DNA of 64,000 nt from an archaeon (GTDB lineage Archaea > Thermoproteota > Nitrososphaeria > Nitrososphaerales > Gagatemarchaeaceae): positions 558,001 to 622,000 of the forward strand of contig CP066694.1 in NCBI GenBank assembly GCA_016432545.1, written 5' to 3'. Of the stretch, positions 3 to 20,040 are shown piece after piece. A program made the position numbers and the translations under genes. Position 1 is the first letter of the stretch. The number at the start of each line of letters is the position of its first letter. The notes beneath the pieces were generated by a model. The model was not told the origin of the DNA and did not search any database. It was given only the letters and a program-made list of their open reading frames with translations.

Positions 3-2291
3 GGCAATGAATACTCGGCCGTCGTAGTCTCGCTCCTCGACCCCTCGGGCCGCCCGTCGTTCCCGACCTCTTACGTGACTGTCTACCTCACTTCGTCTCA
101 ACAGAACGTGGCGACCGTCGACCAGAGCCTCGTGATCAGTCCGGGCTCGAACTACGGGGTAGCGAACCTGACAACCACGATTACGACCGGGTCGACCGTG
201 ATAACCGCTGCCTCTCCCGGCCTTCAGTCCGCTTCATCAGTTTCCACGACCGTAACGCCGAGCGGGTTCCCCTCGAGCCTGAAAGTCTTCGTCGCGCCCA
301 GCACGGTCCCGGCCAGGCCTGGTAGTCAGGGCGTAGTCATCGTCGAGCTGCTAGACAAGAACAACCTGCCGACGAAGCCCACCTCGGACATCACGATTCA
401 GCTTACCACCAGCGAGCCAAGGGTGGCGAACCTGACGGACTCGACCTTGACGCTTCAGGCCGGGAACCTGGAGGTCCAGGGAGGGTTCCTCACCACCTTC
501 CGCCCAGGCCAGGCGGTGGTGACCGCTTCAGCCCCGGGCCTAGGCACTGGAAGGGCCACGGTAAATGTCAAGGGGCCGGCGCCGACCAACCTCAAGGTCT
601 ACGCCCAGCCGGCGAAGATCCCGGTTTCGACCAGCGGCAAGCTTACGATAGTCCTGACTGACTCGACGGGCAATCCTGCGAGGGCGCAGAGCGACATCAC
701 GGTCCTGCTCAGCTCCTCGAACACCAGCCTCGCCAAGGTCAAGAGCACGCTGACAATCCCCGGAGGTAGCATGTACGCCATCACGACGGTCAACTCGACG
801 GCTGTCAACGGCAACGCGATCATTTACGCCGCTTCCACTAACCTCGTCACCGGATCCGTCTCGATAAGGTCCTACTTCCCGTCACTTACGCCTACAAGGC
901 TGAAGCTGGAGCTTGCGCCCCCGGTGGTCCTCGCCGACAATACAGTGTACAGCTCTATCATGGTGTCATTGGAGGACTCGGGCGGCGCACCGGCGCTCGC
1001 AGCTGTTGACACCACAGTGAGGCTCACTGCGTCAAACACCCAAGTGGGAACTGTCCCTGCATCGGTCGTGATTGTCCATTCAACGAACTTCAAGGTCATA
1101 CCTTTCGACGCCACCTTCTTCTCCGGCTCGACAGGAATCACCGCCCAGGGCCTTGACAGCTCTCTGACCATCGACACCGTCCAGCAGGCTACCTACGGGC
1201 CAGTCCCAACGAAGGTGGTCCTGACGGCGCTCTTCGGAACTTCGGGAAGGGGAGGCACACTGCCGGCTGACGGAAAGCTCTACAACGCTCTTGAGGTCTC
1301 CCTCGTGGACGCGTCCGGTTCGCCTGCGGTGGCACCGGAGGACCTCCCCATCCAGCTCCTGTCCACAGCCTCCGGGGTGGTCTCAGTTGATACGGCCGCC
1401 ACAATCCCAGCCGGCTCGACTGCGATCATAACCGGTGTCCAGACGAGCACCCTGTCCGGCCGGGCCAACCTCACTGCGTTCGCGCAAGGGCTTACTATCT
1501 CGGGGCTTCAGGTGCTGACGGTGGTCCCGGCGCCCTCTGCCCTCGCTGCCTGGGTCAGCCCTTCCACAACCCTGTACTCCTCAGTCGCGCTCTCCCCGTT
1601 GCTCTTCGTCCAGCTCCAGGACTCCGCGGGCAACCCGGCCAGGGCGCAGTCGCCCATCAGCGCGACCGTGACTTCGTCCAACGGGGCTGAGGTCCAGACT
1701 CCCATTGCCTTGACATTCCCGCAAGGTACCGACCACATCTCGGTCCGGGTTGAGCTGAAGCACAACGGGTCCACCGTGCTTACCGTGACTTCGTCCGGAC
1801 TTACCTCGGCGAACGCGAGGATCGACGCCCGGTCTCCGACGCTCGCAATCGCCATAACCGCAAACCCGCCCACGATCTTCTCGAACGCGAGCTCGATAGT
1901 CAAGCTGACCTTGATGGCAGAGGGGGCGCCGCTGCCGGGCGCGACGGTCGCTTGGAACTCCAGCCTGGGCAGAGTGGAACCCAACGCCACCTTGACATCG
2001 ACCTCCGGGCTGGCCTCAATCACATTCAAGCCGTCGCAGAGCGGCCTGGCCAAGATCTTTGCGATCATCTCGCACCCGTCTCTGGGCACCTACACCATGA
2101 AGGTCTCGGTGACTATCAACCCCGCGCCGAATAGAGCTCCACCTACGCTTTTGCAGCTAATCCTCTCCTACCTGATCTATGTCATCCCGGTCGTCGCTGC
2201 GATCATCGGGCTGGTGGTCTTCCGTACAATCAGGCGGCGGAGAAGTAAAGCCAGAGAGGAATTGGAAGCAGGGTTCCAGACCCTCTCCTAG
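3..2291 (+). CDS. Ig-like repeat surface protein, C-terminal membrane anchor (5' partial)
   Basis: The reading frame is open to the left edge of the window, and the first codons already read as a repeat (GNEYSAVVVSLLDPSGRP), so the N-terminus is missing. About six to seven beta-rich repeats of roughly 95-100 residues follow; each contains a block like VSLEDSGGAPA or IVLTDSTGNPARAQSDITV and a later block like TIPAGSTAIITGVQTS. This resembles bacterial Ig-like/invasin-type domains. Near the C-terminus comes one membrane helix (LILSYLIYVIPVVAAIIGLVVF), then a basic RTIRRRR stretch and a short cytoplasmic tail, so the repeats should face outward. It is convergent with the methyltransferase gene, 6 bp away. 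The likely role is an adhesin or cell-envelope protein; no enzymatic motif is visible. Confidence 0.8.
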   Translation, partial: GNEYSAVVVSLLDPSGRPSFPTSYVTVYLTSSQQNVATVDQSLVISPGSNYGVANLTTTITTGSTVITAASPGLQSASSVSTTVTPSGFPSSLKVFVAPSTVPARPGSQGVVIVELLDKNNLPTKPTSDITIQLTTSEPRVANLTDSTLTLQAGNLEVQGGFLTTFRPGQAVVTASAPGLGTGRATVNVKGPAPTNLKVYAQPAKIPVSTSGKLTIVLTDSTGNPARAQSDITVLLSSSNTSLAKVKSTLTIPGGSMYAITTVNSTAVNGNAIIYAASTNLVTGSVSIRSYFPSLTPTRLKLELAPPVVLADNTVYSSIMVSLEDSGGAPALAAVDTTVRLTASNTQVGTVPASVVIVHSTNFKVIPFDATFFSGSTGITAQGLDSSLTIDTVQQATYGPVPTKVVLTALFGTSGRGGTLPADGKLYNALEVSLVDASGSPAVAPEDLPIQLLSTASGVVSVDTAATIPAGSTAIITGVQTSTLSGRANLTAFAQGLTISGLQVLTVVPAPSALAAWVSPSTTLYSSVALSPLLFVQLQDSAGNPARAQSPISATVTSSNGAEVQTPIALTFPQGTDHISVRVELKHNGSTVLTVTSSGLTSANARIDARSPTLAIAITANPPTIFSNASSIVKLTLMAEGAPLPGATVAWNSSLGRVEPNATLTSTSGLASITFKPSQSGLAKIFAIISHPSLGTYTMKVSVTINPAPNRAPPTLLQLILSYLIYVIPVVAAIIGLVVFRTIRRRRSKAREELEAGFQTLS

Positions 2292-2297
2292 TACGAG

Positions 2298-3122
2298 TCA
2301 AGCCTCGGCAGTGTGATACGCGACTCTCCCCTCAATCGAGTGCGCGGGAGGAAGCAGGCCCAATCGAAGGCGCGAGACTTTGGCCTCTTTGAGCCGGCCC
2401 TCTTCGGTGATCTCCTCGAATACCGAGCTGTTCCCGGCTATCAGGAGCGCGACCCTGCCGCCGTCCTTCAAGACCCTGATCACCTGCACCGAGGCCTTCC
2501 TCATCTCGAGCGACCCCTTTAGCCTGTGAAGGGCCATTCCCGATACGACGGCGTCGAAGGCCCGGTCCTTGAACGGGAGGTGGGTCGGCTCCCCCATGAC
2601 TAGTGAAATCTTGGACTCGGTGCCGCAGATTCGCGCGTTGGCAAGGAGAGAGGCAGGGCTGTTTCCCGTCACCTCCGTGGGCCTCCATCTGTCCAGCGAG
2701 ACCACTAAGCCGTCCTTCAGCCTGGCAGCCACAGTATTGGCGAACATCCCTCTCCCGGACCCTATGTCTAGCACCACTTCGTTTCCTCCCCAAGAGATCG
2801 TCGCTGCCAGCCGGGCCACCTCCCTAGGCTTCCACGCCTTGCGGCCCAGGTACAGGCCCGCCCCGAACCCGATGAAGATCAGCCCTGCAAGAAGAAGGAG
2901 GAGGCTCAGCATGAAGACCCAGAGGGGTCCGAGAGTCGACCGAAGGAACTGCACCGAGAAGCCCGAGGCAGCCACCAAGATTCCCGCCGCCAAGAGCGAA
3001 AAGATGGTCACTGGGTCGTCCGTTCCATAGTCGGGCTTTCCTGGCAGTAGTGAAGGCGCTTGGCGGTCCTCAGACTTCGGCCCTGCCTTGTTGGGCATTT
3101 CGATTGGCGGGTGCCCTTTCAC
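2298..3122 (-). CDS. Membrane-anchored class I SAM-dependent methyltransferase
   Basis: 274 residues from a GTG start. Two predicted membrane helices lie near residues 37-57 and 66-92. A class I methyltransferase fold follows: motif I is EVVLDIGSGRG (about 115-125), an acidic residue ends the next strand (VSLDRW), and AFDAVVSGMALHRL is a motif IV-like segment. The fold binds S-adenosylmethionine; the methyl acceptor cannot be read from sequence. The gene starts 15 bp after the GspF/FlaJ-like gene on the same strand, so it is probably the third gene of the pilus assembly operon. A membrane-tethered enzyme in that position might modify a lipid, a pilin or another envelope component; this is inference. 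The codon use matches its neighbours. Confidence 0.75.
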   Translation of the reverse strand: MKGHPPIEMPNKAGPKSEDRQAPSLLPGKPDYGTDDPVTIFSLLAAGILVAASGFSVQFLRSTLGPLWVFMLSLLLLLAGLIFIGFGAGLYLGRKAWKPREVARLAATISWGGNEVVLDIGSGRGMFANTVAARLKDGLVVSLDRWRPTEVTGNSPASLLANARICGTESKISLVMGEPTHLPFKDRAFDAVVSGMALHRLKGSLEMRKASVQVIRVLKDGGRVALLIAGNSSVFEEITEEGRLKEAKVSRLRLGLLPPAHSIEGRVAYHTAEA

Positions 3123-3137
3123 AAGGGCCGATAAGCG

Positions 3138-4847
3138 TTACAGTGGTATGGGGATGAAGAGGCGGGCCAGGCTGACCGCTATGATGCTCGCGATGACGAG
3201 GGCGAACCCGTGCTTGAAACCGTCCGACAGGCTGCTCTCCCCCATCTTCCCTGCTACGAGTCCGATTATGAAGGAGTCGAAGACCGCCGTCGTAAGAAGG
3301 AGGTCGATCGTGTGAGGGTCAATCGAGCTCGTCTTGTACCCCAGGGTCGCGGGGGCAGAGAGCATGTAGACAAGGATGAAGGTCGTGAGGATCACCATAA
3401 CGCCCGCGATGTAGGTAACGAAGACGAAAGGCCTCAGTGCCGAGCGCCGCTGGCTTTCGAGGTCGTTGATTGTCCGCGCAAAGGAGGCCATTTCGGTAAA
3501 GCTTCGGATTGTTCCTCCGCCAACGTCGACTACTTCTATCATCAGGATTCCTGTGGCACGGGTGATCCAGCTCGCGACCGAGGAGGTGAATGTGGAGATG
3601 ACCTTCGAGAGAGAGACGCCCCAGGAAAGCTGGGCGCCCATTTTCTTGACGTGCCTCGAAAGCACCCCATAGTTCCTTGATGAGAGGCGTTCTATGCTCT
3701 GTTCAGGAGATAGGCCTGTCTTCCTCCCCTCTGTCACGTCCCCTATGAAGTCAGGAAGTGCCCTCTCAAGCCGTCTCCTCTCACGAGAGAGCCTGAAGGA
3801 AAAGGCGGCTGGAGCACCAGACGCGACGCCCAAGGCGAGGGAGGTGTGGATGTAGAGTGGCACCGGGAGGGGAAGGAGCATTGTTAGAATCGCAAACGGG
3901 ATCATGATTCCGAAAAGCCTGTAGGGGCGGTAGTCCGTGTAAGGCCACTTGGTCTGAACGGCATCTGTGATATAGATGAAACCGGCCGAGAGCAGAGGGA
4001 CGACCAGGAAGGCGAAAACGTACAGGTTCTGTAGGCCCGCGACGTTCTTCGAAATCATTGTCTGGACCATGTAGAGGGTATACAAGGTCATTCCAAGGAC
4101 GACGGTCACTGTCAGGTATGCTTCCGCTATCGTCCCTGTGATGTCGGAAGAAGCCTTGACGATCGCGGACCGGTTGGCGATAAGGTCCCTCAGCTTGAGC
4201 TGGATGTAAGCTTCGAAGCTGCCTCCGGACTTTAGGACCGCCGTATAGCCCGCGAGGAATTCCGACCAGTACCTGCTGGGGCTGAGCCGCGAAGCATTCT
4301 CCATGGCGGTGATGGGGTCCTGGCCGAAGACATCGGTGTCCACGAGTATCCGCTTCGCTTCCTTCTTGGATGCGGGCAGGACGTCCATCTGGGAAATCCT
4401 CCTCAGGGTCTCGATGGGAGACACGCCTCCTCCCGCGAGGACGCTCATGTATCCTAGCACGAAGGGAAGCTCGGTGTCGATGGCTGCGGCCCTGCCGGCC
4501 GAGCTAAGTTTCGGAAGGTTGGTGATCAGGATGTAGACGATGGGGGTCGCGACCGGAAGAAACGCGAAGAACACCATGTTGAGGACAAGCACACCGTAGA
4601 CCGCGAACACTGAAGTGACTAGACCGGTCACGAACGCGGAGAAGAGCGCAAGTGAGACCAGCCCCTCTGGCGAGGTCCTGAGGTTGGACTTCAGAATCTG
4701 CGAGCGCAGGCCTGGCATCCCCTCCGCGATGCGCGCCGAAGGACCTTGGAAGATCTTGAAGGTGAGAGCCACGAACTTGTCGAAGAGGCTCAGGAGGGGC
4801 TCTCGTTTGGCTTTGCCCTCCAGCTCGCTCAGGAGCACGTCGCTCAT
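3138..4847 (-). CDS. Type IV pilus/archaellum-type assembly platform protein (GspF/TadC/FlaJ family)
   Basis: 569 residues. Polytopic membrane protein with two homologous halves, each pairing a cytoplasmic helical T2SSF/GspF domain with membrane helices, as in archaeal FlaJ and PilC-like platforms. The first half contains ELPFVLGYMSVLAGGGVSPIETL; the second contains ERALPDFIGDVTEGRKTGLSP. These are the characteristic platform helices seen in both halves. A longer frame exists, but the start chosen is the ATG that forms an ATGA overlap with the stop of the upstream ATPase gene, the usual sign of translational coupling; the extra upstream residues are low-complexity out-of-frame ATPase sequence. 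It should sit in the cytoplasmic membrane and work with the ATPase to extrude pilins. Confidence 0.9.
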   Translation of the reverse strand: MSDVLLSELEGKAKREPLLSLFDKFVALTFKIFQGPSARIAEGMPGLRSQILKSNLRTSPEGLVSLALFSAFVTGLVTSVFAVYGVLVLNMVFFAFLPVATPIVYILITNLPKLSSAGRAAAIDTELPFVLGYMSVLAGGGVSPIETLRRISQMDVLPASKKEAKRILVDTDVFGQDPITAMENASRLSPSRYWSEFLAGYTAVLKSGGSFEAYIQLKLRDLIANRSAIVKASSDITGTIAEAYLTVTVVLGMTLYTLYMVQTMISKNVAGLQNLYVFAFLVVPLLSAGFIYITDAVQTKWPYTDYRPYRLFGIMIPFAILTMLLPLPVPLYIHTSLALGVASGAPAAFSFRLSRERRRLERALPDFIGDVTEGRKTGLSPEQSIERLSSRNYGVLSRHVKKMGAQLSWGVSLSKVISTFTSSVASWITRATGILMIEVVDVGGGTIRSFTEMASFARTINDLESQRRSALRPFVFVTYIAGVMVILTTFILVYMLSAPATLGYKTSSIDPHTIDLLLTTAVFDSFIIGLVAGKMGESSLSDGFKHGFALVIASIIAVSLARLFIPIPL

Positions 4848-6559
4848 TTCTGGATCTCTTCTATCTGGGGCGTGGCGATCCCCATCGCCTTGACCTCGTT
4901 GAGGGCCCTCTGGTAGGTCTCCTCGGGTCGGCTGACGTAGTAGTCGAGGATTGGAGAGACCTCCTTGAAATTGCGGATTCCCTTCTGCTGAATCCACTTC
5001 AGGACTATGCTCCTCCTGTTGATCTCTTCTACGAGCTGACCAGGCTCGAATCCGCCGTCCCTCGCGAGGCGCTGGATCCTAGGACTCTTCTCGAGGTTGG
5101 CTCCCTTGAACGTATCAGTGCGGGCGTCCCACTTGAAGATCTTCTCGTATACCTTGTCGCTGACAATCTCGTCGACTGAGACGATCCTTCTGATCGACTT
5201 GAAGCCACCCGTGGGAGTCGGCATCGAAATCCTCCTGACCACGAAGATGATGTCGAGGAAAGGCAGGAACGCTGCGGGGACGTTCATCGGGGCTGAGAGG
5301 AGCCTCTGGACGGCCGAGGTCTCGTCGTCGGCGTGGAGAGTGCAAAGTCCGCCGTGTCCCGTGCTGATCGCCTGGAAGAGGACATAGGCTTCTTGGCCCC
5401 TCACCTCTCCTACCACGAGTATGTCCGGCCTCATCCTCATAGCGGCCTTGACAAGTTCGAAGAGGTCGACTTCGCCGGCCCTCTCCTCAGTTGCCGCATA
5501 GCTCTCCCTCGAGACGAGAGGTGTCCAGTTCTGATGTGGTACGTTGATCTCTTGGACCTCTTCGATTGTAACAAGCTTGGTGTTTAGCCTGGTCAAGGTC
5601 AGGATCGCGTTCAGAAGCGTGGTCTTGCCGGCGCCGGTCGCGCCCACGACTATGGCGGTTGAGCGATTCTGCATGAGGAGCCATGTGTACGCCGCAATCT
5701 TGTAGTCGAGGAGGTTGAGATTGAGCATGTCGATAATCGTCAGTGGGTCTTCCCTGAACTTCCTGATCGTCGCACTGCTTCCTTGAGGCGAGACTTCCCT
5801 GCGGAAGGTAGCAATCAGCCTGTGCCTTCCAGGCAGGGTGCCCTGGACGATGGGGAAGGCGGTAGAGACATGCTTTCCGGCCATGTGGGAGAGCCTTGTA
5901 ACGATGTTGTCGAGCTCGTCGTCGTTGGGGATGGTGATGTTCGTCTCGAGGGTTTCGTGACCCTTGTGGTAAATGAAAATCGGCTTGCCTGAGCCGTCCA
6001 GTGAAATGTCTTCGATGTTGGGGTCCTTGAGGGGGCCGTCCAGCACGCCGAATCCGACCAAGTCGCGCTCAGCGAAGTAGATGATCTTGGACCAGGACGT
6101 AGCAGGTACGCGGATGCTGTACTTCAGGACGATGCGCCTGGCTTGGTCTGAGAAGTACTGGCGCGGATTGACCTCTGACCTTGGGACGGTCAGTTCAGCC
6201 TCCAAAGTGTCGAGGATGTAGGAGTAGATGCCCGCCTCGGCCTTCGAGAGGGGGACCTCGTCCAAGAAGTACTTCTTCGCTCCAAGGGGGCTCTCGGAGA
6301 TCTCGGCGAATGCGAAGGGGCTGTTGACTGGGTACCTGTCGATGACCCTCCAAGATGGAGGTATCCTCGTCCCGGTCATCGGGAAGCGGATATTGGTCTT
6401 CCTGAGGAGCGAAATCAGCTTCTCCTGCGACTTCTTCGTCTCGCCGGGCCTTGCTTCTCCGCCTGGGCGGCTCAGTACGTGGCCCTCCACCGCTTCAGGT
6501 TCCGACGGTTTCGAGATCTCTTCGGCCGGAACCGTCGAGTCCTGACTCCCAGACGACAT
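4844..6559 (-). CDS. Type II/IV secretion system ATPase (FlaI/PilB/TadA family)
   Basis: 571 residues, typical for archaeal secretion ATPases. The N-terminal 60 residues are polar and disordered-looking. An N-terminal domain follows (about 150-280), then the RecA-like ATPase core with Walker A GATGAGKTT at 306-314. Downstream are an Asp-box-like TIEEVQEI, the Walker B region DILVVGEVRGQEA and a His-box-like STGHGGLCTLHAD. It powers assembly of type IV pilus-like filaments, or pilin-dependent secretion, at the inner face of the membrane. The stop overlaps the platform gene by 4 bp (ATGA). A TATA-like element (6621-6629, reading TCTATATTA on this strand) and an AGGTGG ribosome site lie upstream. 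Confidence 0.93.
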   Translation of the reverse strand: MSSGSQDSTVPAEEISKPSEPEAVEGHVLSRPGGEARPGETKKSQEKLISLLRKTNIRFPMTGTRIPPSWRVIDRYPVNSPFAFAEISESPLGAKKYFLDEVPLSKAEAGIYSYILDTLEAELTVPRSEVNPRQYFSDQARRIVLKYSIRVPATSWSKIIYFAERDLVGFGVLDGPLKDPNIEDISLDGSGKPIFIYHKGHETLETNITIPNDDELDNIVTRLSHMAGKHVSTAFPIVQGTLPGRHRLIATFRREVSPQGSSATIRKFREDPLTIIDMLNLNLLDYKIAAYTWLLMQNRSTAIVVGATGAGKTTLLNAILTLTRLNTKLVTIEEVQEINVPHQNWTPLVSRESYAATEERAGEVDLFELVKAAMRMRPDILVVGEVRGQEAYVLFQAISTGHGGLCTLHADDETSAVQRLLSAPMNVPAAFLPFLDIIFVVRRISMPTPTGGFKSIRRIVSVDEIVSDKVYEKIFKWDARTDTFKGANLEKSPRIQRLARDGGFEPGQLVEEINRRSIVLKWIQQKGIRNFKEVSPILDYYVSRPEETYQRALNEVKAMGIATPQIEEIQK

Positions 6560-6700
6560 CTAAGGTCCACCTGGCACAATTCTGAGACTCGGCAATTTCG
6601 TCCCAAAGCGGGCTTCCAACCTAATATAGATTTGAGAGGGGTTGTGAGGGCTCATCAGGGGCATCAATCGGAGTCCTTGAGAAGGTGTGGAGAAGTACAA

Positions 6701-9700
6701 CTAAGTCTCCGTGAAGGTCGCGCTCGCGGCCACGACCGAGGTCGTTGTGTCGTAGACGATGACATAGTAGGTTCCAGCCGTCGCTTGGTTGACGGTCAAT
6801 GTGACGCCACCCGGTATAGCGCCTGCCCCACTCGTCGTAAGGGTAAAGGAGCTGCTCACACAGGTGGCGGTTGTGGCGCTTGAGCTGAGGCAGTATGAGT
6901 AGGACTTCGAGTTTGCGTAGTTGGAGCCACTGAGTGTCGTCACCGTGTTAGAACCATGAGGTCCAGAAGTGATTGTGAGACTCAACGTTGGAGCCGGGGA
7001 AACGGTGAAGACAGCCTGAGCGGTATTCCCTTGGGCATCTGTCGCCACCACAGAGTGGGTACCCCCGCCCGAGGTCGGGACTAAGAAAGTAGTTGCCCCC
7101 GGGATGGCGCCAGCACCTGTGGCGGTTACGGCTGCGGGGCTGGTCGTCAAGACATTGCCGTCGTAGGAGAAGCCTATTGGAGCGCTTGCCGTGAAGCCCG
7201 ATCCGGTCAAGGTTACAGAGGATCCGAGTTTGCCGCTTACGGGGGCCAGGCTTAGGGTTCCAGGGGTCTGGAAGTAGGTCAGCACTAGTGGTTCGTTCTC
7301 ACCTACTGGCACAACGCTCCCCGTACAACCTGTGTAACCTAGAGTAGTACACCCAACCCCAAATACGCCGTGCAGATAGAAGGAACCCGGACCGGTCCCA
7401 CCGGCGGCAGGGCACGTGGTCGCCGAACAGCTATTGCCCATAGGTGTCCCTGTGAAGTAGACCGTCACTGGGTGAAGAGAGTTCGTCGTGACATCGGGAG
7501 CGGGAAGCAAGATACCGTCTCCCAAGCACACAGGAGTGCCTGAGCCAGAGGTTCCTCCGCACGTGATAAGTCCTGTACTCGATACCGACCCTATGTACCA
7601 CACGAAATTCTTGGAGCTGGAACCGGGCGGCTGATTGGTGATAAAGAACAGGCTGTCAGCGTCCAAGACTATGTTTCTGTGACCAGTTGTGTCTGTATCC
7701 GAGAGGTTAGCCGAGAACACGAGTACTTTTCCCGTGTTCGTTAGTGGGCTCACCGTGGTCCATCCCGTCGGGGCATTCTTCACGTTAAATGTGCCGCCTA
7801 TGCAGTTTGTGTTGAATGGGTTGTTCGCGCAGCCGAAAGAATTGTAGTTGTCAAGGTGGCAACCGGAAGCTCCGGGCAGACATCCATTCCCGCCGGTCAC
7901 TACCGTGCCCCAACTCCTAAAACTGTCGAAGTCCAGCGCTATGTACCCAAGCCCGCTCGAGCTGGTCGCGCGGCACGTCGTAGTCGTCGGATCGCAGCCT
8001 TGGGTGACTACGAGTGGTTCGCAGGAGCTTGTTGCCCCGGCGTTGTTCGAGTCTCCTGAGTAGACAGCATGCCAGCTGAAAGCCCCTAGGCTGTTGAATG
8101 TCACCGAGGCGGAGTTAGGCACCACTGCGTTTGTTACGGTAACAGCTACACCAACGGTTGTCGCCATTCCGCCGCAACCAGCCCCAGTGAAATACGAATA
8201 AGTGACGGTTCCACCTGCGTTGGTCGTCACGCCTATCAGGTTCGCCTGGTCATAAACTGAGGTAGCAGGAAGGACCGAGGTGGCCGACAGCGTGGTAATG
8301 ATGGCGCTCACAAAGTTGAGGTTCGTCACCAAAAGTGGCTCGCATGGGCTGGTCGCCGGGTTGTTGTTGGCGTCTCCGCCGTACACTGCGACCCAGCTGA
8401 AGGAGCCCGCGCTGGAGTAGGCGAAGGCGCTTGAGTTTGAACTTACCTTGCCGTTGACTACGGAGGAAGTGCTGACCTGGACCCGGGTCCCTTGGCAGAT
8501 TCCGCTTGCCGTGTACCTGTAATAGGTGACGGTCCCTCCTGCATCGGACGTCACGCCATCCAGGGTCGCTTGGTCGAAGACGGAGCCTCCCGGGGAGATG
8601 ACGTTCGCAGATAGGGTGGTCGTAAAGGACGAAATTATCGTGTGAAGAACCAGGAGTGGCTCGCAGGGGCTGTTCGCCGCGGCGTTGTTGGCGTCGCCGG
8701 AGTAGACTGCCTTCCATGAGTACGCGCCGGCCGTGCTGTACACCACAGTGGATGAGGCAGGTGCGATTCCGTTCGTCACCGTCACCGGAGAGCCAACCTG
8801 AGTCTGACCCGTAGTACACAGGCCATCCGAGTAGCGGTTGTAGGTCACCGTGCCGCCTGCCGTACTTGTGACCCCCTCGAAGTAAGCCTGGTCAAAGACG
8901 GACCCGCCAGGAGAGATGACATTCGCCGAGAGGGTGGTGGTGAAGGCTGGGATGTAGGTCTGAGCCACGTAAAGCGGCTCGCAGGGGCTGGTCGCTCCTG
9001 CGTTGTTCGCATCGCCAGAGTACACCGCCTTCCAGGAGTAGGCCCCGGCTGTATTGAAAGTCACGGACGAGGAACTTGGGACCACGGCGTTGGTTACAGT
9101 GACGGGAGAGCCCACAGTGGTCTGACCGGTGGTGCAGAGGCCATCGGAATAGCGGCTGTAGGTGACCGTCCCTCCCGCTGTTGTTGTTACTCCCTCGAGA
9201 GTGGCCTGGTCGAAGACCGACTGCCCGGGCGTGATGACGTTGGCTGAAAGGGTAGTGGTGAAAGCGGGGATGTACGTCTGGCTAACCAAGAGTGGTTCGC
9301 ACGGGCTAGTCGCGCCTGCGTTGTTCGCGTCCCCCGAATAGACTGCGTTCCAACTCAGGGTCCCGGCCGAGTTGAAAACGACAGAAGCGGAGTTTGGCAC
9401 AACTGCGTTCGTGACTGTTGCGGCAGAGCCCACCTGCGTCTGTCCCGCCGAGCAGAGCCCGTTGGAGTACCGATAGTATGTGACGGTCCCGCCCGCAGTA
9501 GGCGTCACTCCGATCAGCGTCGCCTGGTCGTAGACAGAGTTGCCCGGGGTTATCACGTAGGATGAGAGGCTGGTGACCACCCCGACAGCAGAATTCGAGT
9601 TGGTCACGAAGAGGGGCTCGCAGGGGCTATTGGCCGCGGCGTTGTTCGCGTCTCCCGAGTAGACGGCCTTCCATGAATAGGCCCCGTAGGTGTTGTAGGT

Positions 9701-12700
9701 CACTGAAGCTGAGTTGGGGGCGACGCCGTTTGTAACCGTCACAGGAGACCCCACCTGCGTCTGTCCCGCCGAGCAGAGCCCGTCGGAGTATCGGTAGTAG
9801 GTCACAGTGCCCCCGGCGGTGCTTGTCACGCCCTCCAGTGTTGCCTGGTCGAACACTGACCCACCTGGGAGGATTACATTCGCCGACAGCGTTGTCGTGA
9901 ACGACGGGATGAAAGTCTGAGACACGAGCAAAGGCTCGCAGGGACTGGTCGCAGCCGCGTTGTTCGCGTCGCCCGAATAGACTGCGTTCCAGCTCAGTGT
10001 CCCCGCGGAGTTGAACGTTACAGAGGCGGAGTTCGGCACCGCCCCGTTGGTCACGGTCGCGGCCGACCCCACCTGGGTCTGCCCAGCCGAGCAAAGGCCG
10101 TTGGAGTACCGATAGTAGGTGACGGTCCCTCCCGCCCCTGGTGTCACGCCGATCAGTGTCGCCTGGTCGAAGACGGAGTTCCCTGGGGTTATCACGTAGG
10201 ATGAAAGCGTGGTGACCACACCAACTTTGGAGTTGGAGTTTGTAACGAAGAGGGGCTCGCAGGGGCTGTTGGCCGCGGCATTGTTCGCGTCTCCTGAGTA
10301 CACTGCCTTCCAGGAGTAGGCCCCGTACGTGTTGTAGGTTACTGAGGCTGAATTCGGGGCAACACCGTTCGTGACCGTCACTGGGGACCCGACCTGGGTC
10401 TGGCCGGCCGAGCAGAGCCCGTCTGTGTAGCGGGAGTAGGTGACCGTGCCACCTGCGGTGCTAGTGACGCCCTCCAAGGTCGCCTGGTCAAAGACTGAGC
10501 CGCCAGGCAGGATCACGTTTGCCGACAGGGCGGTCGTAAAGGACGGGATGAAGGTCTGTGCCACTAGCAAAGGCTCGCATGGGCTGGTAGCGGCGGAGTT
10601 GTCGACATCACCGGAATAGGCGGCGCTCCAGCTGTAAGTCCCGGCAGTGTTGTACGTGAAGCTCGAGGAGGCAGGGACCAGTCCGTTGGTCACAGACGCG
10701 GGCGAGCCAACCTGGGTCTGCCCCGAGCTGCAGAGTCCGTCCGAGTATCTGTAGTAGGTGACCGTGCCTCCGGCCGCGATGGTGACTCCAGCGAGCAACG
10801 CTTGATCGTAAACCGAGTTGCCGGGCGTAATCACGTTCGAGGAAAGGGTGGTGATGATGGCCCTTACGAAGGTCAGAGAAATCGACAGCGGCTCGCAGGC
10901 GCTGGTCGTGGGGTTGTTCTTGGCGTCTCCCGAGTAGACTGCAACCCAGCTGTAGGAGCCTGCCGTTGCGTAGACGACGGACGAGGAGTTGGCCCCAACA
11001 ATTCCGTTGGTGACAGTCGCCTGGCTGACCTGGAGCCTGCCGCCCTGACATATGGCGCTAGAAGTGTATCGATAGTAGGTGACCGTCCCGGAGGCGTCAG
11101 TAGTGACCGCGGAGAGCCTCGCCTGGTCGAAGACCGACCCGCCGGGCAGGATTACGTTTGACGAGAGGGTAGTCACGAGGCCAGGTACGAAGGTGTCAGT
11201 GACATACAGAGGCTCGCATGGGCTGTTCGCTGGGAGGTTGTTGGCGTCCCCTGAGTAGATCGCGTTCCAGCTGTATGAGCCTGCGGTGTTGAAGGTCACG
11301 GCGTTGGAGCTCGTCTGGACGATGCCGGCCACCACATCCACGGGGGAACCTACCTGGGAGGGCGTGCTGGAGCAGTCGCCGCTTGTAGAGTAGTAATAGA
11401 AAGTTACAGTTCCCCCCGCGCCCGTCGTCGCCCCCGCGAGGGTGGCCTGGTCGCTCACCGAACCGCCCGGCTTGATTACGCTGGAGGAGAGGGTGGTGGT
11501 AAGGGACGGCTGGATGTTCGATGAAGTGGCGGTCAGAGGCTCGCAGGCGCTTGTAGCGCCGGCGTTGCTTCCGTCTCCCGAATAGACTGCCTTCCAGCTG
11601 TACAACCCCGCGACGGCGAACGTCGCAGAGGGAGAGTTGGGAACCAGCCCGCTGGTGACTGTCACCTGCCCGACCTGGGTTTGACCTGTCGTACAGGTCC
11701 CGTCGGAGTACCTGTAGTATGTGACGGTGCCGCTGGCGGTGACAGTGACCCCGTTGAGCGTCGCCTGGTCGTAGACCGAAGCAGGGGGGACTACGGTTGT
11801 CGCGGAGAGCGTCGTGACTATCGTCGTGAGGATGCCGGATGCCGTGTTGATCAGGAGGGGCTGGCAGGATCCGGTGGCAGCGTTATTGGCCCCGTCGCCC
11901 GAATAGATCGCTCTCCAGCTGTAGAGGCCTGGGCTGCTGAAGGCGACCGCCGCAGAGTCAGGCACGATTCCGTTGACAACAGTGACCGAGCTTACGATTA
12001 TGGGGGTCCCGGTGCAAATGGGGCTCGAGGGATTGAAGTATTCGTAGGTTACTGTGCCGCTCGCGGTCGGCGTGACGCCAGCGAGGACCGATTGGTCGAA
12101 GATCGCATTTCCGGGGAACGCGTAGCTGGCGTTCAGGGTCCCGATTATCCCAGGGAGGACCGGCGAGTGCTCGGAGAAGTTCGAGCCGACCCCCTGAGTC
12201 GTTGTGAATACGTTTCCGGTCTTAGTGATGACCCCCAGCGTGTAGCGACCATCAGCGAGGGGCGCATAGTTGGTGTCGAAGAGTATCTGAGAGCCGGCCC
12301 CGCTGACGTCCAGCGCGAGCGGTATGGAACCATTGAAAGCAGGCGCAGAGTTCGAGCTGAATGGGCTCATGATAGTCTGCGTGGTCAGCATTGCGGTAGC
12401 GTTCGGGACCAGGTTTCCGTTCGGGTCTGCCACGAAAGCTGCTATCAGGTCGAGGGGTGCGCCGCCGGTGTTGTTCACCCAGACCTTGAAGGTGTTGGAC
12501 CCGGTCCCGTTGAGCCCGAGCTGTCCCGACACGGAGACGGACTCTCTGCTCTTGTCCTGGTTGAATATCTGATTTCTCTCTTCGGCCTGGCTGAACTGGC
12601 CATTGAGTGTGTTCGAGAAGAGGAGGAAGCCGAGGCCTGCGGTGAAGATCAGCGCGAACATGATTATCGCCGCGATGATCCCCGAGATTGCCTTCTGCCT

Positions 12701-12724
12701 GCGCCTGCCCCTTAAGAGTCTCAA
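6701..12724 (-). CDS. Giant pilin-like protein: prepilin N-terminus plus 13 Ig-like repeats and TIG-like C-terminus
   Basis: 2007 residues from a TTG start. The N-terminus RRRQKAISGIIAAI followed by a hydrophobic helix (residues 13-35) is a class III (prepilin) signal, with predicted cleavage after Ala12. A short pilin-like beta domain follows. Then come 13 repeats of about 95-105 residues, each with a start like TTLSANVILPGGSVFDQATL, an internal GLCSAGQTQVG and a closing VYSGDANNAAANSPCEPL; the two cysteines per repeat suggest one disulfide each. The last 450 residues carry a cysteine-rich segment and two IPT/TIG-like domains (GSSVTLTGSGFTASAPIGFS). There is no second membrane helix. It begins 4 bp after a small pilin gene, and the ATPase/platform operon lies downstream on the same strand. 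A role as a long adhesive, possibly tip-located pilin is inference. Confidence 0.85.
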   Translation of the reverse strand: MRLLRGRRRQKAISGIIAAIIMFALIFTAGLGFLLFSNTLNGQFSQAEERNQIFNQDKSRESVSVSGQLGLNGTGSNTFKVWVNNTGGAPLDLIAAFVADPNGNLVPNATAMLTTQTIMSPFSSNSAPAFNGSIPLALDVSGAGSQILFDTNYAPLADGRYTLGVITKTGNVFTTTQGVGSNFSEHSPVLPGIIGTLNASYAFPGNAIFDQSVLAGVTPTASGTVTYEYFNPSSPICTGTPIIVSSVTVVNGIVPDSAAVAFSSPGLYSWRAIYSGDGANNAATGSCQPLLINTASGILTTIVTTLSATTVVPPASVYDQATLNGVTVTASGTVTYYRYSDGTCTTGQTQVGQVTVTSGLVPNSPSATFAVAGLYSWKAVYSGDGSNAGATSACEPLTATSSNIQPSLTTTLSSSVIKPGGSVSDQATLAGATTGAGGTVTFYYYSTSGDCSSTPSQVGSPVDVVAGIVQTSSNAVTFNTAGSYSWNAIYSGDANNLPANSPCEPLYVTDTFVPGLVTTLSSNVILPGGSVFDQARLSAVTTDASGTVTYYRYTSSAICQGGRLQVSQATVTNGIVGANSSSVVYATAGSYSWVAVYSGDAKNNPTTSACEPLSISLTFVRAIITTLSSNVITPGNSVYDQALLAGVTIAAGGTVTYYRYSDGLCSSGQTQVGSPASVTNGLVPASSSFTYNTAGTYSWSAAYSGDVDNSAATSPCEPLLVAQTFIPSFTTALSANVILPGGSVFDQATLEGVTSTAGGTVTYSRYTDGLCSAGQTQVGSPVTVTNGVAPNSASVTYNTYGAYSWKAVYSGDANNAAANSPCEPLFVTNSNSKVGVVTTLSSYVITPGNSVFDQATLIGVTPGAGGTVTYYRYSNGLCSAGQTQVGSAATVTNGAVPNSASVTFNSAGTLSWNAVYSGDANNAAATSPCEPLLVSQTFIPSFTTTLSANVILPGGSVFDQATLEGVTSTAGGTVTYYRYSDGLCSAGQTQVGSPVTVTNGVAPNSASVTYNTYGAYSWKAVYSGDANNAAANSPCEPLFVTNSNSAVGVVTSLSSYVITPGNSVYDQATLIGVTPTAGGTVTYYRYSNGLCSAGQTQVGSAATVTNAVVPNSASVVFNSAGTLSWNAVYSGDANNAGATSPCEPLLVSQTYIPAFTTTLSANVITPGQSVFDQATLEGVTTTAGGTVTYSRYSDGLCTTGQTTVGSPVTVTNAVVPSSSSVTFNTAGAYSWKAVYSGDANNAGATSPCEPLYVAQTYIPAFTTTLSANVISPGGSVFDQAYFEGVTSTAGGTVTYNRYSDGLCTTGQTQVGSPVTVTNGIAPASSTVVYSTAGAYSWKAVYSGDANNAAANSPCEPLLVLHTIISSFTTTLSANVISPGGSVFDQATLDGVTSDAGGTVTYYRYTASGICQGTRVQVSTSSVVNGKVSSNSSAFAYSSAGSFSWVAVYGGDANNNPATSPCEPLLVTNLNFVSAIITTLSATSVLPATSVYDQANLIGVTTNAGGTVTYSYFTGAGCGGMATTVGVAVTVTNAVVPNSASVTFNSLGAFSWHAVYSGDSNNAGATSSCEPLVVTQGCDPTTTTCRATSSSGLGYIALDFDSFRSWGTVVTGGNGCLPGASGCHLDNYNSFGCANNPFNTNCIGGTFNVKNAPTGWTTVSPLTNTGKVLVFSANLSDTDTTGHRNIVLDADSLFFITNQPPGSSSKNFVWYIGSVSSTGLITCGGTSGSGTPVCLGDGILLPAPDVTTNSLHPVTVYFTGTPMGNSCSATTCPAAGGTGPGSFYLHGVFGVGCTTLGYTGCTGSVVPVGENEPLVLTYFQTPGTLSLAPVSGKLGSSVTLTGSGFTASAPIGFSYDGNVLTTSPAAVTATGAGAIPGATTFLVPTSGGGTHSVVATDAQGNTAQAVFTVSPAPTLSLTITSGPHGSNTVTTLSGSNYANSKSYSYCLSSSATTATCVSSSFTLTTSGAGAIPGGVTLTVNQATAGTYYVIVYDTTTSVVAASATFTET
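8008..12140 (-). repeat. Coding tandem repeats, 13 Ig-like units of about 300 nt
   Basis: Thirteen in-frame units encode Big_3-like Ig domains inside the giant pilin-like protein. The period alternates slightly. Units 6-7 and 8-9 form a duplicated pair with an offset of 639 nt (213 residues; compare 10542 with 9903) that is almost identical in protein sequence but carries many silent differences. The outer units 1, 2, 3 and 13 are the most divergent. Confidence 0.9.
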
Positions 12725-12728
12725 TTTC

Positions 12729-13358
12729 TTAGACCTTCAATTTCGGAAAGCTCAGGACGTATCCGTAGCCCCCGCTGATGGTGACAGTGAAGGAACTTCC
12801 GCTGTCGAAAGCGTAGTCGTTCGGGCATCCTGCGGCAATCCCTGGAATGTCAAATTTGAAGTCGGTCAGAACGTTGATCGGGAACGTGGTCACCGCAAGA
12901 GGTGTACGCGATATGGGAAATGCGGGAGGCGATATCCAGGTCTCGTAGAGCGAAAGGTCGCTGATAGGCGCGCTGGTTTCACAAAGGACGACGTTGTTGG
13001 CGTTCGTGACGATGATGCTCTTCTGGCCAAAGTTGACGACCGACTGCACACCGGAGAGCTTGCCCGAGATTAGGACGCTCGTGATGTTGAGGGCGACTTT
13101 TCCGTTGTTGTAGATCCAGAGGTTCAGGGAGTTCCCGGCGGTCGTGTTGGGGAATGAGGAGAACGGCACGACGAACTTCTCGCGGAGCGCGTTTATGTTA
13201 CTCCCTACGCTGGCGCCGAGCTGGCTCCCGCTGGTTGCCAACTGGCCGTTGACGAACCCGATGGCTGCGACGCCGCCAATCAGAGTTATCGCGATGGTGA
13301 TGAGGGAGGCGAACAGTTCGGAGAGCGCCCTCCTCTCGGAGGAGTGACCTAGCTTCAA
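12729..13358 (-). CDS. Small archaeal type IV pilin-like protein
   Basis: 209 residues from a TTG start. The leader ends SSERRA, with predicted cleavage after Ala11, then LSELFASLITIAITLIGGVAAIGF: the short basic leader plus hydrophobic helix of an archaeal prepilin. The rest is a beta-rich ectodomain with a few cysteines (CETSAP, GCPNDY). The gene is directly upstream (4 bp) of the giant pilin-like gene and probably co-transcribed with it from an AT-rich promoter at 13385-13400. It could be a major or minor subunit of the same filament. Confidence 0.85.
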   Translation of the reverse strand: MKLGHSSERRALSELFASLITIAITLIGGVAAIGFVNGQLATSGSQLGASVGSNINALREKFVVPFSSFPNTTAGNSLNLWIYNNGKVALNITSVLISGKLSGVQSVVNFGQKSIIVTNANNVVLCETSAPISDLSLYETWISPPAFPISRTPLAVTTFPINVLTDFKFDIPGIAAGCPNDYAFDSGSSFTVTISGGYGYVLSFPKLKV

Positions 13359-13384
13359 TACAGTCTGTTTTTTCTTCTGCCGCC

Positions 13385-13400
13385 CTTTTATCTATTTAAT
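13385..13400 (-). promoter_or_regulatory. TATA/BRE-like promoter of the pilin operon
   Basis: On the reverse strand this reads ATTAAATAGATAAAAG, about 27-42 nt upstream of the TTG start of the small pilin at 13358. It lies in the 169-bp divergent gap between oppositely oriented pilin genes. The spacing fits an archaeal TATA box with a short leader. Prediction from sequence only. Confidence 0.5.
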
Positions 13401-13527
13401 CGTTATGAGTTGATGTTAGTGTTTAGTGTTCCATCAGAGGGTAAGTTCGCCCCGATATCATGGCAATTTATGCGAAATCTGATTCGAGTTCAGCTTAAAA
13501 ATCGCAACTCAGCTGCATGATACGTCG

Positions 13528-13977
13528 ATGCAACTCCGGCGGGGCAATAAGAGGCGAGGAGTCGCCGAGCTGCTGTCTGAAGTGATTCTGATAGCAATCA
13601 CTATGATTTCGGCCGCCGCAGTTTCTGGTTACTTCTACACAAGCCTGAATTCTTACCAGAACGCCGCCCAGGTCAGCGCGCTCGTATCGTCGTGCAACTG
13701 GATGACTGGCGTCTGTAGTCTGAGTCTGACAAACACCGGCACGATCGACACCAATGTGATTTCTGGCTCCGGGTGCGCGAGCCTCGACTTCTCGGGGGTC
13801 AAGGTGATGGCGAGTTCGTGCGCCGCGACAGGAGGGTCCATCAAGAGCGCGAAGACCACCATGGTAGCGGCGAATTTCGGAGGTCCGCTGAGTCCGATAC
13901 CTCACGCAGGGCAGAGGTTGACCGGGTCGATCAGCCTGACGAACGGCGCAGTCTTGTACTTCGCCGGCACTTTCTAG
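13528..13977 (+). CDS. Small archaeal type IV pilin-like protein
   Basis: 149 residues. The leader ends GNKRRG, with predicted cleavage after Gly11, followed by VAELLSEVILIAITMISAA, a typical archaeal prepilin N-terminus. The ectodomain has a cysteine pair (SSCNWMTGVCSLSLTNTG) that matches the next gene (VSCDAASGRCTVGLLNTG), so the two are paralogues. A TATA-like AGCTTAAAAATC lies at about 13494-13505. It is divergent from the other pilin operon, so this locus has two promoters facing apart. Likely a filament subunit. Confidence 0.85.
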   Translation: MQLRRGNKRRGVAELLSEVILIAITMISAAAVSGYFYTSLNSYQNAAQVSALVSSCNWMTGVCSLSLTNTGTIDTNVISGSGCASLDFSGVKVMASSCAATGGSIKSAKTTMVAANFGGPLSPIPHAGQRLTGSISLTNGAVLYFAGTF

Positions 13978-14119
13978 GATTGTGGCCGGTCGCCCGGCTT
14001 CCGGGGTCGAGGGTCAAAGTTGCCATGGTGAACTTTTGTAGACCCCCAAAATCGTATCATGTGAAGATTTGTCATCCATAATGGTTATTAGGAACTTTTC
14101 AGGCCCCTTTTTTCATAAG

Positions 14120-14551
14120 ATGAACATACGCAACAACAGCGACAGAAAAGCCATCTCACCAGTCCTAGCAACAGTCATCCTCATTGCAATCACCCTCGTG
14201 GCTGCAGTGGCGATCGCAGGTTTCGTCTTCGGGCTCTTCGGCTCGTTCACGAACACCGCACAAGTCTCAGCGAGCAATGTCTCATGCGATGCCGCATCGG
14301 GACGCTGCACAGTGGGGCTTCTGAACACAGGAACATCCAACACATCAACTACAGGCTCTTGCAGTGAAACGTACAGCGGAGCCACTCAGACCTCGAACAA
14401 CAGCACACAAGCAGTCGTAACGGCGGGTGCCGGAGCGGTATCCTTCACCTGCTCGTTCGCATGGGTGCCCGGAACCTCCGGTTCTCAAGTGACAGGGTCG
14501 ATTTCCCTAACTAACGGCGGAAACGTCCTGTTCTCGGGATCGTTCTCCTAG
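14120..14551 (+). CDS. Small archaeal type IV pilin-like protein
   Basis: 143 residues from the ATG at 14120. Upstream in-frame ATGs at 14069 and 14081 would add residues before the short basic leader and are less likely. The leader MNIRNNSDRKA precedes ISPVLATVILIAITLVAAV; RKA/ISPV is the classic archaeal flagellin-like/pilin processing site. The ectodomain is short, Ser/Thr/Gly-rich and has three cysteines in the region shared with the upstream pilin, plus one further (FTCSFAW). The same end motif (GSISLTNGGNVLFSGSF, compare GSISLTNGAVLYFAGTF) confirms duplication of the 13528 gene. Together they look like a two-gene pilin set for the ATPase/platform encoded at 3-6.6 kb. Confidence 0.87.
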   Translation: MNIRNNSDRKAISPVLATVILIAITLVAAVAIAGFVFGLFGSFTNTAQVSASNVSCDAASGRCTVGLLNTGTSNTSTTGSCSETYSGATQTSNNSTQAVVTAGAGAVSFTCSFAWVPGTSGSQVTGSISLTNGGNVLFSGSFS

Positions 14552-14728: not shown

Positions 14729-15274
14729 ATGGGAAAAGACGACCTACCAGGTTCTCCTATAGAAATCGACTCGGAGGCGGGCGTGATTCAGGAGAAGCCG
14801 CTGGAGTCCAGGGTGATGACGATTAGCGCCCAGGGGTGGGCCAACGTCAAGGTCGAGCTGGACAGCACCTTCATGTCGGGAGCCGCGATCATCATGCAAC
14901 GCATGGGCTACAGCTATGGCAGGTACATCGCCAGGATTGCCAAGCAGAAGGCCCAGAAGACCAAGAAGGAGGTCAACTCGAAATCGGTCTTTCAGGTAAT
15001 CCTTGACGCGGCGAAGGCCCATGGGTGGGGACAGTTCAGTCTGAACAGCGGCAACTTCGAGACGGGGGTGGCCTCCATCGTGGTGAAAGACTGCTTCTTC
15101 TGCCTGTTTGACAAGAAAGGAACTGTCCCTCGGTGCAACTATCTGGTTGGAGTGGTAGGGGGAGTTGCCGACGAATTGACTGGGTTCTCGCACCGCGTGG
15201 GAGAGGGGCGGTGCGCAGCCAAGGACGACGGGCTCTGTGAAGTGAAGGTCGAGCGAGTCACTGCGGCGAGCTAG
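14729..15274 (+). CDS. V4R domain protein
   Basis: 181 residues. After about 35 N-terminal residues the sequence follows the V4R (4-vinyl reductase-like) small-molecule sensor fold: a mid region with FMSGAAIIMQRMGYSYGRYIARIA, a GWGQFSLNSG segment, then a cysteine-rich end (KDCFFC, VPRCNYLVGVVGG, GEGRCAAKDDGLCEVKVE). The same cysteine pattern ends two ACT-V4R proteins 4-6 kb downstream. V4R domains bind hydrophobic ligands or tetrapyrrole intermediates in characterised proteins; the ligand here is unknown. The N-terminal segment matches no domain I recognise. The gene stands alone, 80 bp before the next gene. Confidence 0.75.
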   Translation: MGKDDLPGSPIEIDSEAGVIQEKPLESRVMTISAQGWANVKVELDSTFMSGAAIIMQRMGYSYGRYIARIAKQKAQKTKKEVNSKSVFQVILDAAKAHGWGQFSLNSGNFETGVASIVVKDCFFCLFDKKGTVPRCNYLVGVVGGVADELTGFSHRVGEGRCAAKDDGLCEVKVERVTAAS

Positions 15275-19200: not shown

Positions 19201-19989
19201 ATGGTAGTGCCCATGAAAGGGGTGGAAAAGAGGGCTTTTCCTTACCACTACGCGCCCGGGAAGAGGCTCTTCCACATTGTAGCGAGGATGAGTGACGAAC
19301 CTGGATCCTTCAGCTCGATCTTAGACCTGCTCGCGTCCCAGGTCGACCTGATAGGGACCGAGACCTACGGAGTCGATGAGGGGTCGGCTGTCTTCAGCGG
19401 GTTCGCAGAGCCGCTCTCGCCGACCCAGACGCCGTCCGAACTCGAGAAGGTCATCATGGGCTCCAAAGCCGCCCGGGAGGCAATGGTGACCGAGGGAAGC
19501 GATGGGATGCTCGTCGACAAGTTCCACACTGGTCTGGAGGTGGGGCCCCAGTCCCTGATGTACTTCCGCAGGGGCGCGATGTCCAAAGTCTTCGACAAGG
19601 TCGTCGAGCTCTTCGGGAGCGGCGGAGAGACGCTCCTCTACAACGAGGGAAACGCGATGGGCAGGGACAATGCGGCGGTCATGATCAATCTGATCGGGAA
19701 GGAAATGGTCAGAAGGCAATCCGACCAGCTGAGGTTCGTCCTCCAGGCCCAGGGTTGGGGCTCGCTCTCGGTCCCCCAGAGAGACCCCGCAGGGTGGTCG
19801 AAGGTCCAGGTGAACGACTGCTTCGAGTGCAGCGAGAGCGGCGGGAAGAGGCACAGCTGCAACTTCCTCCGAGGGTACCTCGAGGGCTCGGGCACGACCG
19901 TCTACGACGTCGAGATGCGGTCAGAGGAGACGAAGTGCATTCTCCGCGGTGATCCCGTTTGCGAGTTCGCTCTGGGCCCGAAGCGCTGA
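19201..19989 (+). CDS. ACT-V4R domain protein (paralogue 1)
   Basis: 262 residues. An ACT domain (about residues 20-95; HIVARMSDEPGSFSSILDLL) that usually binds amino acids or other small ligands is followed by a linker and a C-terminal V4R domain (about 120-260) with cysteines in NDCFEC, KRHSCNF, TKCILRGDPVCEF. The combination suggests a two-ligand sensor; the effector is not visible. A TATA element CTTAAATA at 19177-19184 predicts transcription start near 19205, so ATG 19213 could be the true start. It is followed by a close paralogue 51 bp downstream, a tandem duplication. Confidence 0.8.
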   Translation: MVVPMKGVEKRAFPYHYAPGKRLFHIVARMSDEPGSFSSILDLLASQVDLIGTETYGVDEGSAVFSGFAEPLSPTQTPSELEKVIMGSKAAREAMVTEGSDGMLVDKFHTGLEVGPQSLMYFRRGAMSKVFDKVVELFGSGGETLLYNEGNAMGRDNAAVMINLIGKEMVRRQSDQLRFVLQAQGWGSLSVPQRDPAGWSKVQVNDCFECSESGGKRHSCNFLRGYLEGSGTTVYDVEMRSEETKCILRGDPVCEFALGPKR

Positions 19990-20040
19990 GGTTTCGTCCA
20001 ATGAGCATAGGGGCGAGGAGCTCATGGGGGTACGATCTTC

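Follow-up and report, generated by a model that had tools for sequence, protein, structure and literature searches.

Can a protein of 2007 amino acids (aa) be the subunit of an archaeal pilus? Archaeal pilins are usually thought of as small, and little is known about the way in which archaeal pili acquire specific binding functions. The question is raised by a locus in a 64,000-nucleotide (nt) stretch of DNA (the window; bases 558001-622000 of the genome of an uncultured archaeon, 1.504 Mb in a single contig, G000), where the minus strand carries in order the genes for a 209-aa UpsB-like prepilin, the 2007-aa protein (here called the giant, being about ten times as long as a usual pilus subunit), an assembly ATPase and a platform protein, which together form a compact type IV pilus operon. 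A previous reading of the DNA from its letters alone had taken the giant for a pilin-like protein with 13 immunoglobulin-like (Ig) repeats. With a probability of roughly 0.75 we regard it as a modular archaeal type IV (minor) pilin which presents a long adhesive arm. Among the results behind this view are a pilin module which is homologous to the subunit of a solved filament and an Ig array situated between two domains that are adjacent in ordinary-sized relatives. The parts of the giant are the following (positions are those of the window; HMM, hidden Markov model):

6701-12724 (-): whole giant (modular prepilin of 2007 aa), starting with TTG 4 bp beyond the stop of the upstream pilin gene
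12689-12724 (-): class III (prepilin-type) leader MRLLRGRRRQKA, predicted cleavage after Ala12
12197-12688 (-): pilin module, residues 13-176, alpha-1 helix and 7-strand beta-sandwich, family HMM E 9.4e-31
7988-12148 (-): 13 tandem Ig-like repeats (Big_3_5), residues 193-1579, Pfam Big_3_5 E 1e-34
7268-7969 (-): C-domain (residues 1586-1819), a homologue of the C-terminal domain found in ordinary-sized relatives (334-450 aa)
6704-7267 (-): C-terminal tail, residues 1820-2007, two beta repeats, TIG-like by sequence inspection

The length of the protein, as previously read, stands: the frame runs through 2007 codons without interruption. Because its GC content at third codon positions (0.73) matches that of the neighbouring genes and independent genomes hold homologues, the frame is real, and a chance or artefactual frame is ruled out.

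The pilin module

The N-terminus of the giant consists of MRLLRGRRRQKA followed, after the predicted cleavage point, by ISGIIAAIIMFALIFTAGLGF. The junction K-A/I-S (the slash marks the cleavage point) fits the archaeal prepilin motif and leads directly into a hydrophobic helix, and K or R followed by A or G is conserved at the aligned position before this point throughout the family of the giant. The four archaeal prepilin N-termini that had been noticed in this region are indeed present: class III leaders are found in four genes of the window (RQKA/ISGII, ERRA/LSELF, KRRG/VAELL and DRKA/ISPVL), each with a hydrophobic helix behind it.

Residues 1-176 represent a complete archaeal pilin module with leader, alpha-1 helix and beta-sandwich. 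A profile of 14 relatives (the N-terminal family), compared with the PDB, matched 8FK7_A with an E of 1.2e-12 over residues 4-141 of 144, and a differently composed profile of 22 rows matched the same chain at E 2.9e-11. The AlphaFold (AF2) model of the module contains a 54-residue helix (7-60) and seven strands. Used as query in Foldseek this model again returned 8FK7_A at the top (E 3.5e-5, probability 1.00), followed by archaellins. The region behind the helix thus adopts the pilin arrangement for which the sequence-only reading had proposed a structure prediction. Within the family, an N-domain HMM built from the short relatives finds all 13 of the 13 large members at E <= 4.2e-23, while the best shuffled control reached 0.059.

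PF07790 (Pilin_N) and TIGR02537 do not match the giant itself. Because these standard pilin models miss it, its membership among the pilins rests on the family profile built here together with the PDB match. Such models are tools of detection and not a biological definition, and their miss limits the annotation of the giant more than its identity. A credible second membrane anchor is not found in the giant, as had been stated before: the only other 19-residue window above 1.6 scores 1.68 at residue 236, which lies within the first Ig repeat.

The Ig array as an insertion

The count of 13 repeats with a disulfide-type pattern proved to be exact, each being about 106 aa long and carrying two Cys. 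DNA identity among the repeats is highest for the pairs 6/8 (82%) and 7/9 (80%), which fits a duplication of a two-repeat block. From the size of an Ig domain, a stalk of 13 such repeats would measure roughly 50 nm when extended. The TIG-like domains at the C-terminus, by comparison, are a visual resemblance only, as Pfam yields no match to residues 1820-2007, TIG included.

Most relatives have in this slot a gene for a protein of 334-444 aa, in which the pilin module is followed directly by the C-domain. In these short relatives the C-domain begins with ALSSGAIGDLYL and ends with NYGQNSPYVTTLY. An HMM made from the C-domains of ten short relatives only, for which the best E among 20 shuffles of each of 13 proteins was 0.048, matches residues 1610-1818 of the giant with an i-E of 5.8e-10. 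It also matches L145 and, after one iteration, the 1703-aa protein L144 at 651-807 (E 1.5e-6); since the Ig repeats of L144 occupy 179-596, the C-domain lies beyond the array there as well. For the 1399-aa homologue in L022 the same HMM gives a weak signal with two partial matches that represent the two domain ends. The number of Ig copies varies from 13 in the window to 8 in L022 (residues 184-1032) and 4 in L144. A BLAST comparison of the giants with themselves gave nothing usable for repeats and was uninformative, being blind even to the 13 repeats of the window.

Because the pilin module and the C-domain adjoin each other in the ordinary relatives and flank the array in the giant, the Ig array, as judged from these sequence comparisons, was inserted into a pilin of ordinary size, where it now separates two domains that existed before.

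The operon and its assembly machinery

The other genes of the pilus region are these:

12729-13358 (-): UpsB-like small prepilin (209 aa) at the head of the operon, TIGR02537 E 1.5e-5, above the cut-off
4844-6559 (-): assembly ATPase, T2SSE/FlaI-like, 571 aa, PF00437 E 4.6e-35
3138-4847 (-): platform membrane protein, T2SSF/UpsF/FlaJ-like, 569 aa with corrected start, PF00482 E 1.4e-19
13528-13977 (+): small prepilin, divergent, 149 aa, Pilin_N 18 bits, TIGR02537 19.6 bits, just under the cut-off
14120-14551 (+): UpsA-like small prepilin, Pilin_N 27.8 bits, above the cut-off, TIGR02537 E 5.5e-12

An ATPase and a platform protein just downstream of the giant had been proposed and both are there, whereas the start of the platform gene has to be moved from 4997 to about 4847, because ATPase and platform genes then overlap by 4 bp as they do in the orthologous operon of L022. 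The UpsB-like pilin precedes the large pilin in relatives, too. The two further small prepilins lie on the plus strand, divergent from the operon; for the UpsA-like one, a 160-aa open reading frame (ORF) starting at 14069, the true start is probably the internal ATG at 14120, which gives a leader of 11 residues.

ATPase and platform protein resemble FlaI, UpsF and BasE/BasF, but every score stays under the curated cut-off. The ATPase obtains 335.9 bits with the FlaI/ArlI equivalog (cut-off 550), the Ups equivalogs give 33 bits for UpsA (130), 23 for UpsB (70) and 115.5 for UpsF (400), and the Bas models give 223 for BasE (1000) and 102 for BasF (1300). Therefore a direct assignment to Ups, Bas or the archaellum is ruled out. 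A prepilin peptidase is not found within the window, in agreement with the sequence-only reading; a candidate is encoded elsewhere in the genome (G000:187174-187794, minus strand), with 206 aa, the aspartate motifs QDVRQ and GQAD and a weak Arc_PepC_II tail.

The slot upstream of the ATPase in related genomes

The slot directly upstream of the ATPase is conserved across the Nitrososphaeria. The 334-444 aa of most relatives stand against 859-2007 aa in five genomes, which are among the genomes placed in the same genus. Giant prepilins beside FlaI/FlaJ-type genes, for which a search in related genomes had been suggested, do recur:

Window genome: 2007 aa
L022/G025: 1399 aa
L132/G002: 1969 aa, alongside 571 and 539 aa
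L133, L144/G003: 1315 aa, alongside 897 and 554 aa; 1703 aa at a second locus
L134/G009: 1162 aa, alongside 859 and 534 aa

The nearest named relative in the collections is the groundwater 'Thaumarchaeota' metagenome-assembled genome JACQFN01 (ATPase 90% identical). A paralogous pilus operon lies in the window genome itself, at a distance of about 10 kb (G000:546010-553060; L013 6010-13060), with an ATPase 59% identical and a large pilin of 388 aa only. This operon also contains Thr-rich pilin-like genes, and the ORF pair 11486-12493 and 10875-11429 (L013) looks like a frameshifted Thr-rich pilin.

In a tree of the ATPases the window-type operons of the five genomes, all with giants, form one clade (100/100), with the deep forks of the tree unresolved. 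The 1703-aa case groups instead with the 388-aa paralogue of the window genome (100/99). This implies at least two separate origins of giants, unless a shortening produced the 388-aa gene. When window and L022 (4916-9752) are compared, identity amounts to 33.5% for the pilin module of the giant and 37% for the UpsB-like pilin, against 90% for the ATPase, 80% for the platform protein and 69% for an Ig repeat. Such a divergence of the pilins is what would be expected of fast-evolving surface subunits and might reflect fast evolution or an exchange of cassettes.

The pilin-module profile has at least one match in 136 of 300 genomes of the class; its matches at distant rank represent general pilin similarity, because small pilins match too. 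Members of family f10, with 591-1055 aa, are encoded directly after a small pilin gene, in several cases with ATPase and platform genes on the same stretch. Two Bathyarchaeota records (L033, 1162 aa; L035, 1127 aa and incomplete) have the large member right before the ATPase, and some Desulfurococcales possess a stand-alone member of 157-158 aa upstream of the ATPase, which suggests that the pilin module is a complete pilin by itself. The position of the array between two pre-existing domains, the ordinary-sized paralogues (one at a distance of only 10 kb) and the class-wide occurrence of the family go beyond what had been noted from the window.

The pilins in this one operon slot range in length from about 330 to 2007 residues, and the entry of the Ig array between two conserved domains can be traced, so that the evolution of modular pilins becomes testable in archaea. 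This extends to other families of the class, whose large pilins (about 590-1055 residues) share the profile and sit near pilus ATPases. We give about even odds to the wider proposal that a still unnamed class of large modular pilins is widespread in Nitrososphaeria, with a constant place ahead of the pilus ATPase. In the window lineage it would have become a platform for rapid evolution of repeat arrays, putting Ig arms tens of nanometres long on type IV pili. Such arms would be equivalent to giant repeat adhesins, with the difference that the pilus machine assembles them.

How the giant might work

As a modular minor pilin, the giant would be exported and its basic leader of 12 residues cut by the prepilin peptidase of the genome. 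The ATPase and platform protein of the same operon could then build the pilin module (about residues 13-176) into a pilus along with the small pilins encoded beside it, and the stalk of 13 Ig repeats would be carried outside the filament or at its tip, ending in the C-domain and the two beta repeats. The whole protein might work as a long adhesin or sensor arm. If this is true, imaging would have a concrete target in a filament whose arms reach tens of nanometres.

Several points weigh against this reading. Cleavage of the leader, incorporation into a filament, the position at the tip or at the side, and adhesion are steps that we infer. The solved subunits of archaeal pili that we met have 136-306 residues, far fewer than the 2007 of the giant. 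Confidence in the AF2 model of the pilin module is modest, with a mean predicted local distance difference test score (pLDDT) of 69.5 and residues 111-137 poor. The model of a 370-aa two-domain relative (L023, five alignment rows) has a pLDDT of 44.6 and is unusable for the C-domain, and because it is too poor no ligand-binding fold is established for this domain. Finally, the peptidase candidate reaches 25.1 bits with PF01478 (E 2.4e-5), just under the cut-off of 26.5.

Among the alternatives, the one we take most seriously, although we consider it unlikely, keeps the same leader and module and places them in a short, envelope-bound pseudopilus or bindosome-like assembly, as proposed for Bas of Sulfolobus. 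No long filament would form, and the Ig arm would be placed at the S-layer or reach through it. The likeness of ATPase and platform protein to BasE/BasF, as well as to UpsF and FlaI, speaks for this alternative, and the chain might be long enough to cross the S-layer unaided. The scores are, however, far under the Bas cut-offs, two typical small pilins stand beside the operon as expected for a filament, and the best structural match, 8FK7, is the subunit of a long filament. That the giant is an ordinary N-terminally anchored surface protein, with an uncut leader and the hydrophobic helix as a plain anchor for an Ig stalk, seems more doubtful still. Surface proteins with an uncleaved N-terminal anchor are common in archaea, but here a pilin beta-domain homologous to a filament subunit comes after the helix, which makes an uncut membrane anchor improbable, and both the leader motif and the operon slot are conserved across relatives. 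The condition under which the sequence-only reading would have settled for such a protein, a region behind the helix unable to take up a pilin arrangement, thus does not hold. We give hardly any weight to the idea that the giant is the main building block of the filament, which would turn it into a brush-like fibre with an Ig arm on every subunit: although in most relatives the pair of genes directly ahead of the ATPase consists of a member of the giant's family and the UpsB-like pilin, subunits of 2007 residues would be costly and crowded, and the two canonical small pilins fit the role of major pilin better.

Neighbouring genes and further observations

Between the two pilus operons, at 3-2291 (+) of the window, a C-terminally anchored surface protein with Ig-like repeats is encoded. 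In L023 a homologue of it (31%, E 2e-50) comes after the platform gene, so the protein may be a partner that is either associated with the pilus or S-layer-like. Membrane-anchored S-adenosylmethionine-dependent methyltransferases which are 30% identical lie one beside each pilus operon (window 2298-3122, minus strand; L013 16198-16968, minus strand). Genes resembling, by eye, a glycosyltransferase and a dolichyl-phosphate-mannose mannosyltransferase are also found beside the pilus operons (L013 13090-16158) and possibly serve pilin glycosylation. V4R-like sensor genes occur near the pilus region (window 14729-15274 and 19201-20835), with one PF02830 match of 20.5 bits, which is below the cut-off, and two paralogues recognized by eye. 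The pilus ATPase ORFs of about 1000 aa in two relatives (L028 9977-12946, with LAGLIDADG, and L169 6197-9292) contain an intein (Intein_splicing), and split ATPase matches in G004, G012, G021 and G036 suggest several further ones.

Comparison with known systems

The closest known structure is the subunit of the flagellar-like archaeal type IV pilus of Pyrobaculum calidifontis (PDB 8FK7, 144 aa). The likeness covers the whole module including NTGG-like and VKVVTxRG motifs, but 8FK7 stops at the end of the module where the giant adds 13 Ig repeats, the C-domain and the tail. With the Ups/Aap/Bas systems of Sulfolobales the locus shares the kinds of genes known from Ups (ATPase, platform, UpsA-like and UpsB-like pilins); it differs in that all scores of the window are below the equivalog cut-offs and in that nothing in the Ups/Aap/Bas models corresponds to the third, large pilin family.

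Large or minor archaeal pilins have been noted before. The portions considered here of the survey by Makarova et al. (2016, PMC4858521) treat pilins whose length varies (e.g. arCOG02911, about 250-550 aa) as presumed minor pilins of archaea, and Thermoproteales loci encode a 'large signal peptide containing protein ... minor pilin or an adhesin'; those portions do not contain an Ig-array modular pilin of the giant's size. Nor did we find, in the part of the literature covered, any account of archaeal pilins that carry a long inserted Ig array between module and conserved C-domain.

In bacteria, modular pilins such as PilB/PilC of S. sanguinis combine a small pilin module with unrelated C-terminal effector domains which are probably presented by the filament, and a census based on the N-terminal motif IPR012902 counted more than 1,200 such proteins with 264 architectures (PMC8179133). 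Raynaud et al. (2021) define them by a pilin module joined to domains which are not specific to type IV pili, and the giant shows this combination (module 1-176, Big_3_5 193-1579); in their sense the grafted part would also be expected to serve the function of the pilus directly. Leader and fold differ, being of the N-methyl type in bacteria; the giant has an archaeal class III leader, an Ig-like pilin fold and no Pfam or NCBIfam match to the bacterial N_methyl (IPR012902-type) motif. The most extreme bacterial case has 860 residues and 12 repeats (PMC8179133), compared with 2007 residues and an array between two conserved domains here. By analogy, the giant may be seen as an archaeal counterpart of the bacterial modular pilins. 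While these and possible large minor pilins of archaea were already known, a long Ig array inserted in an archaeal pilin appears, within the literature covered, to be new.

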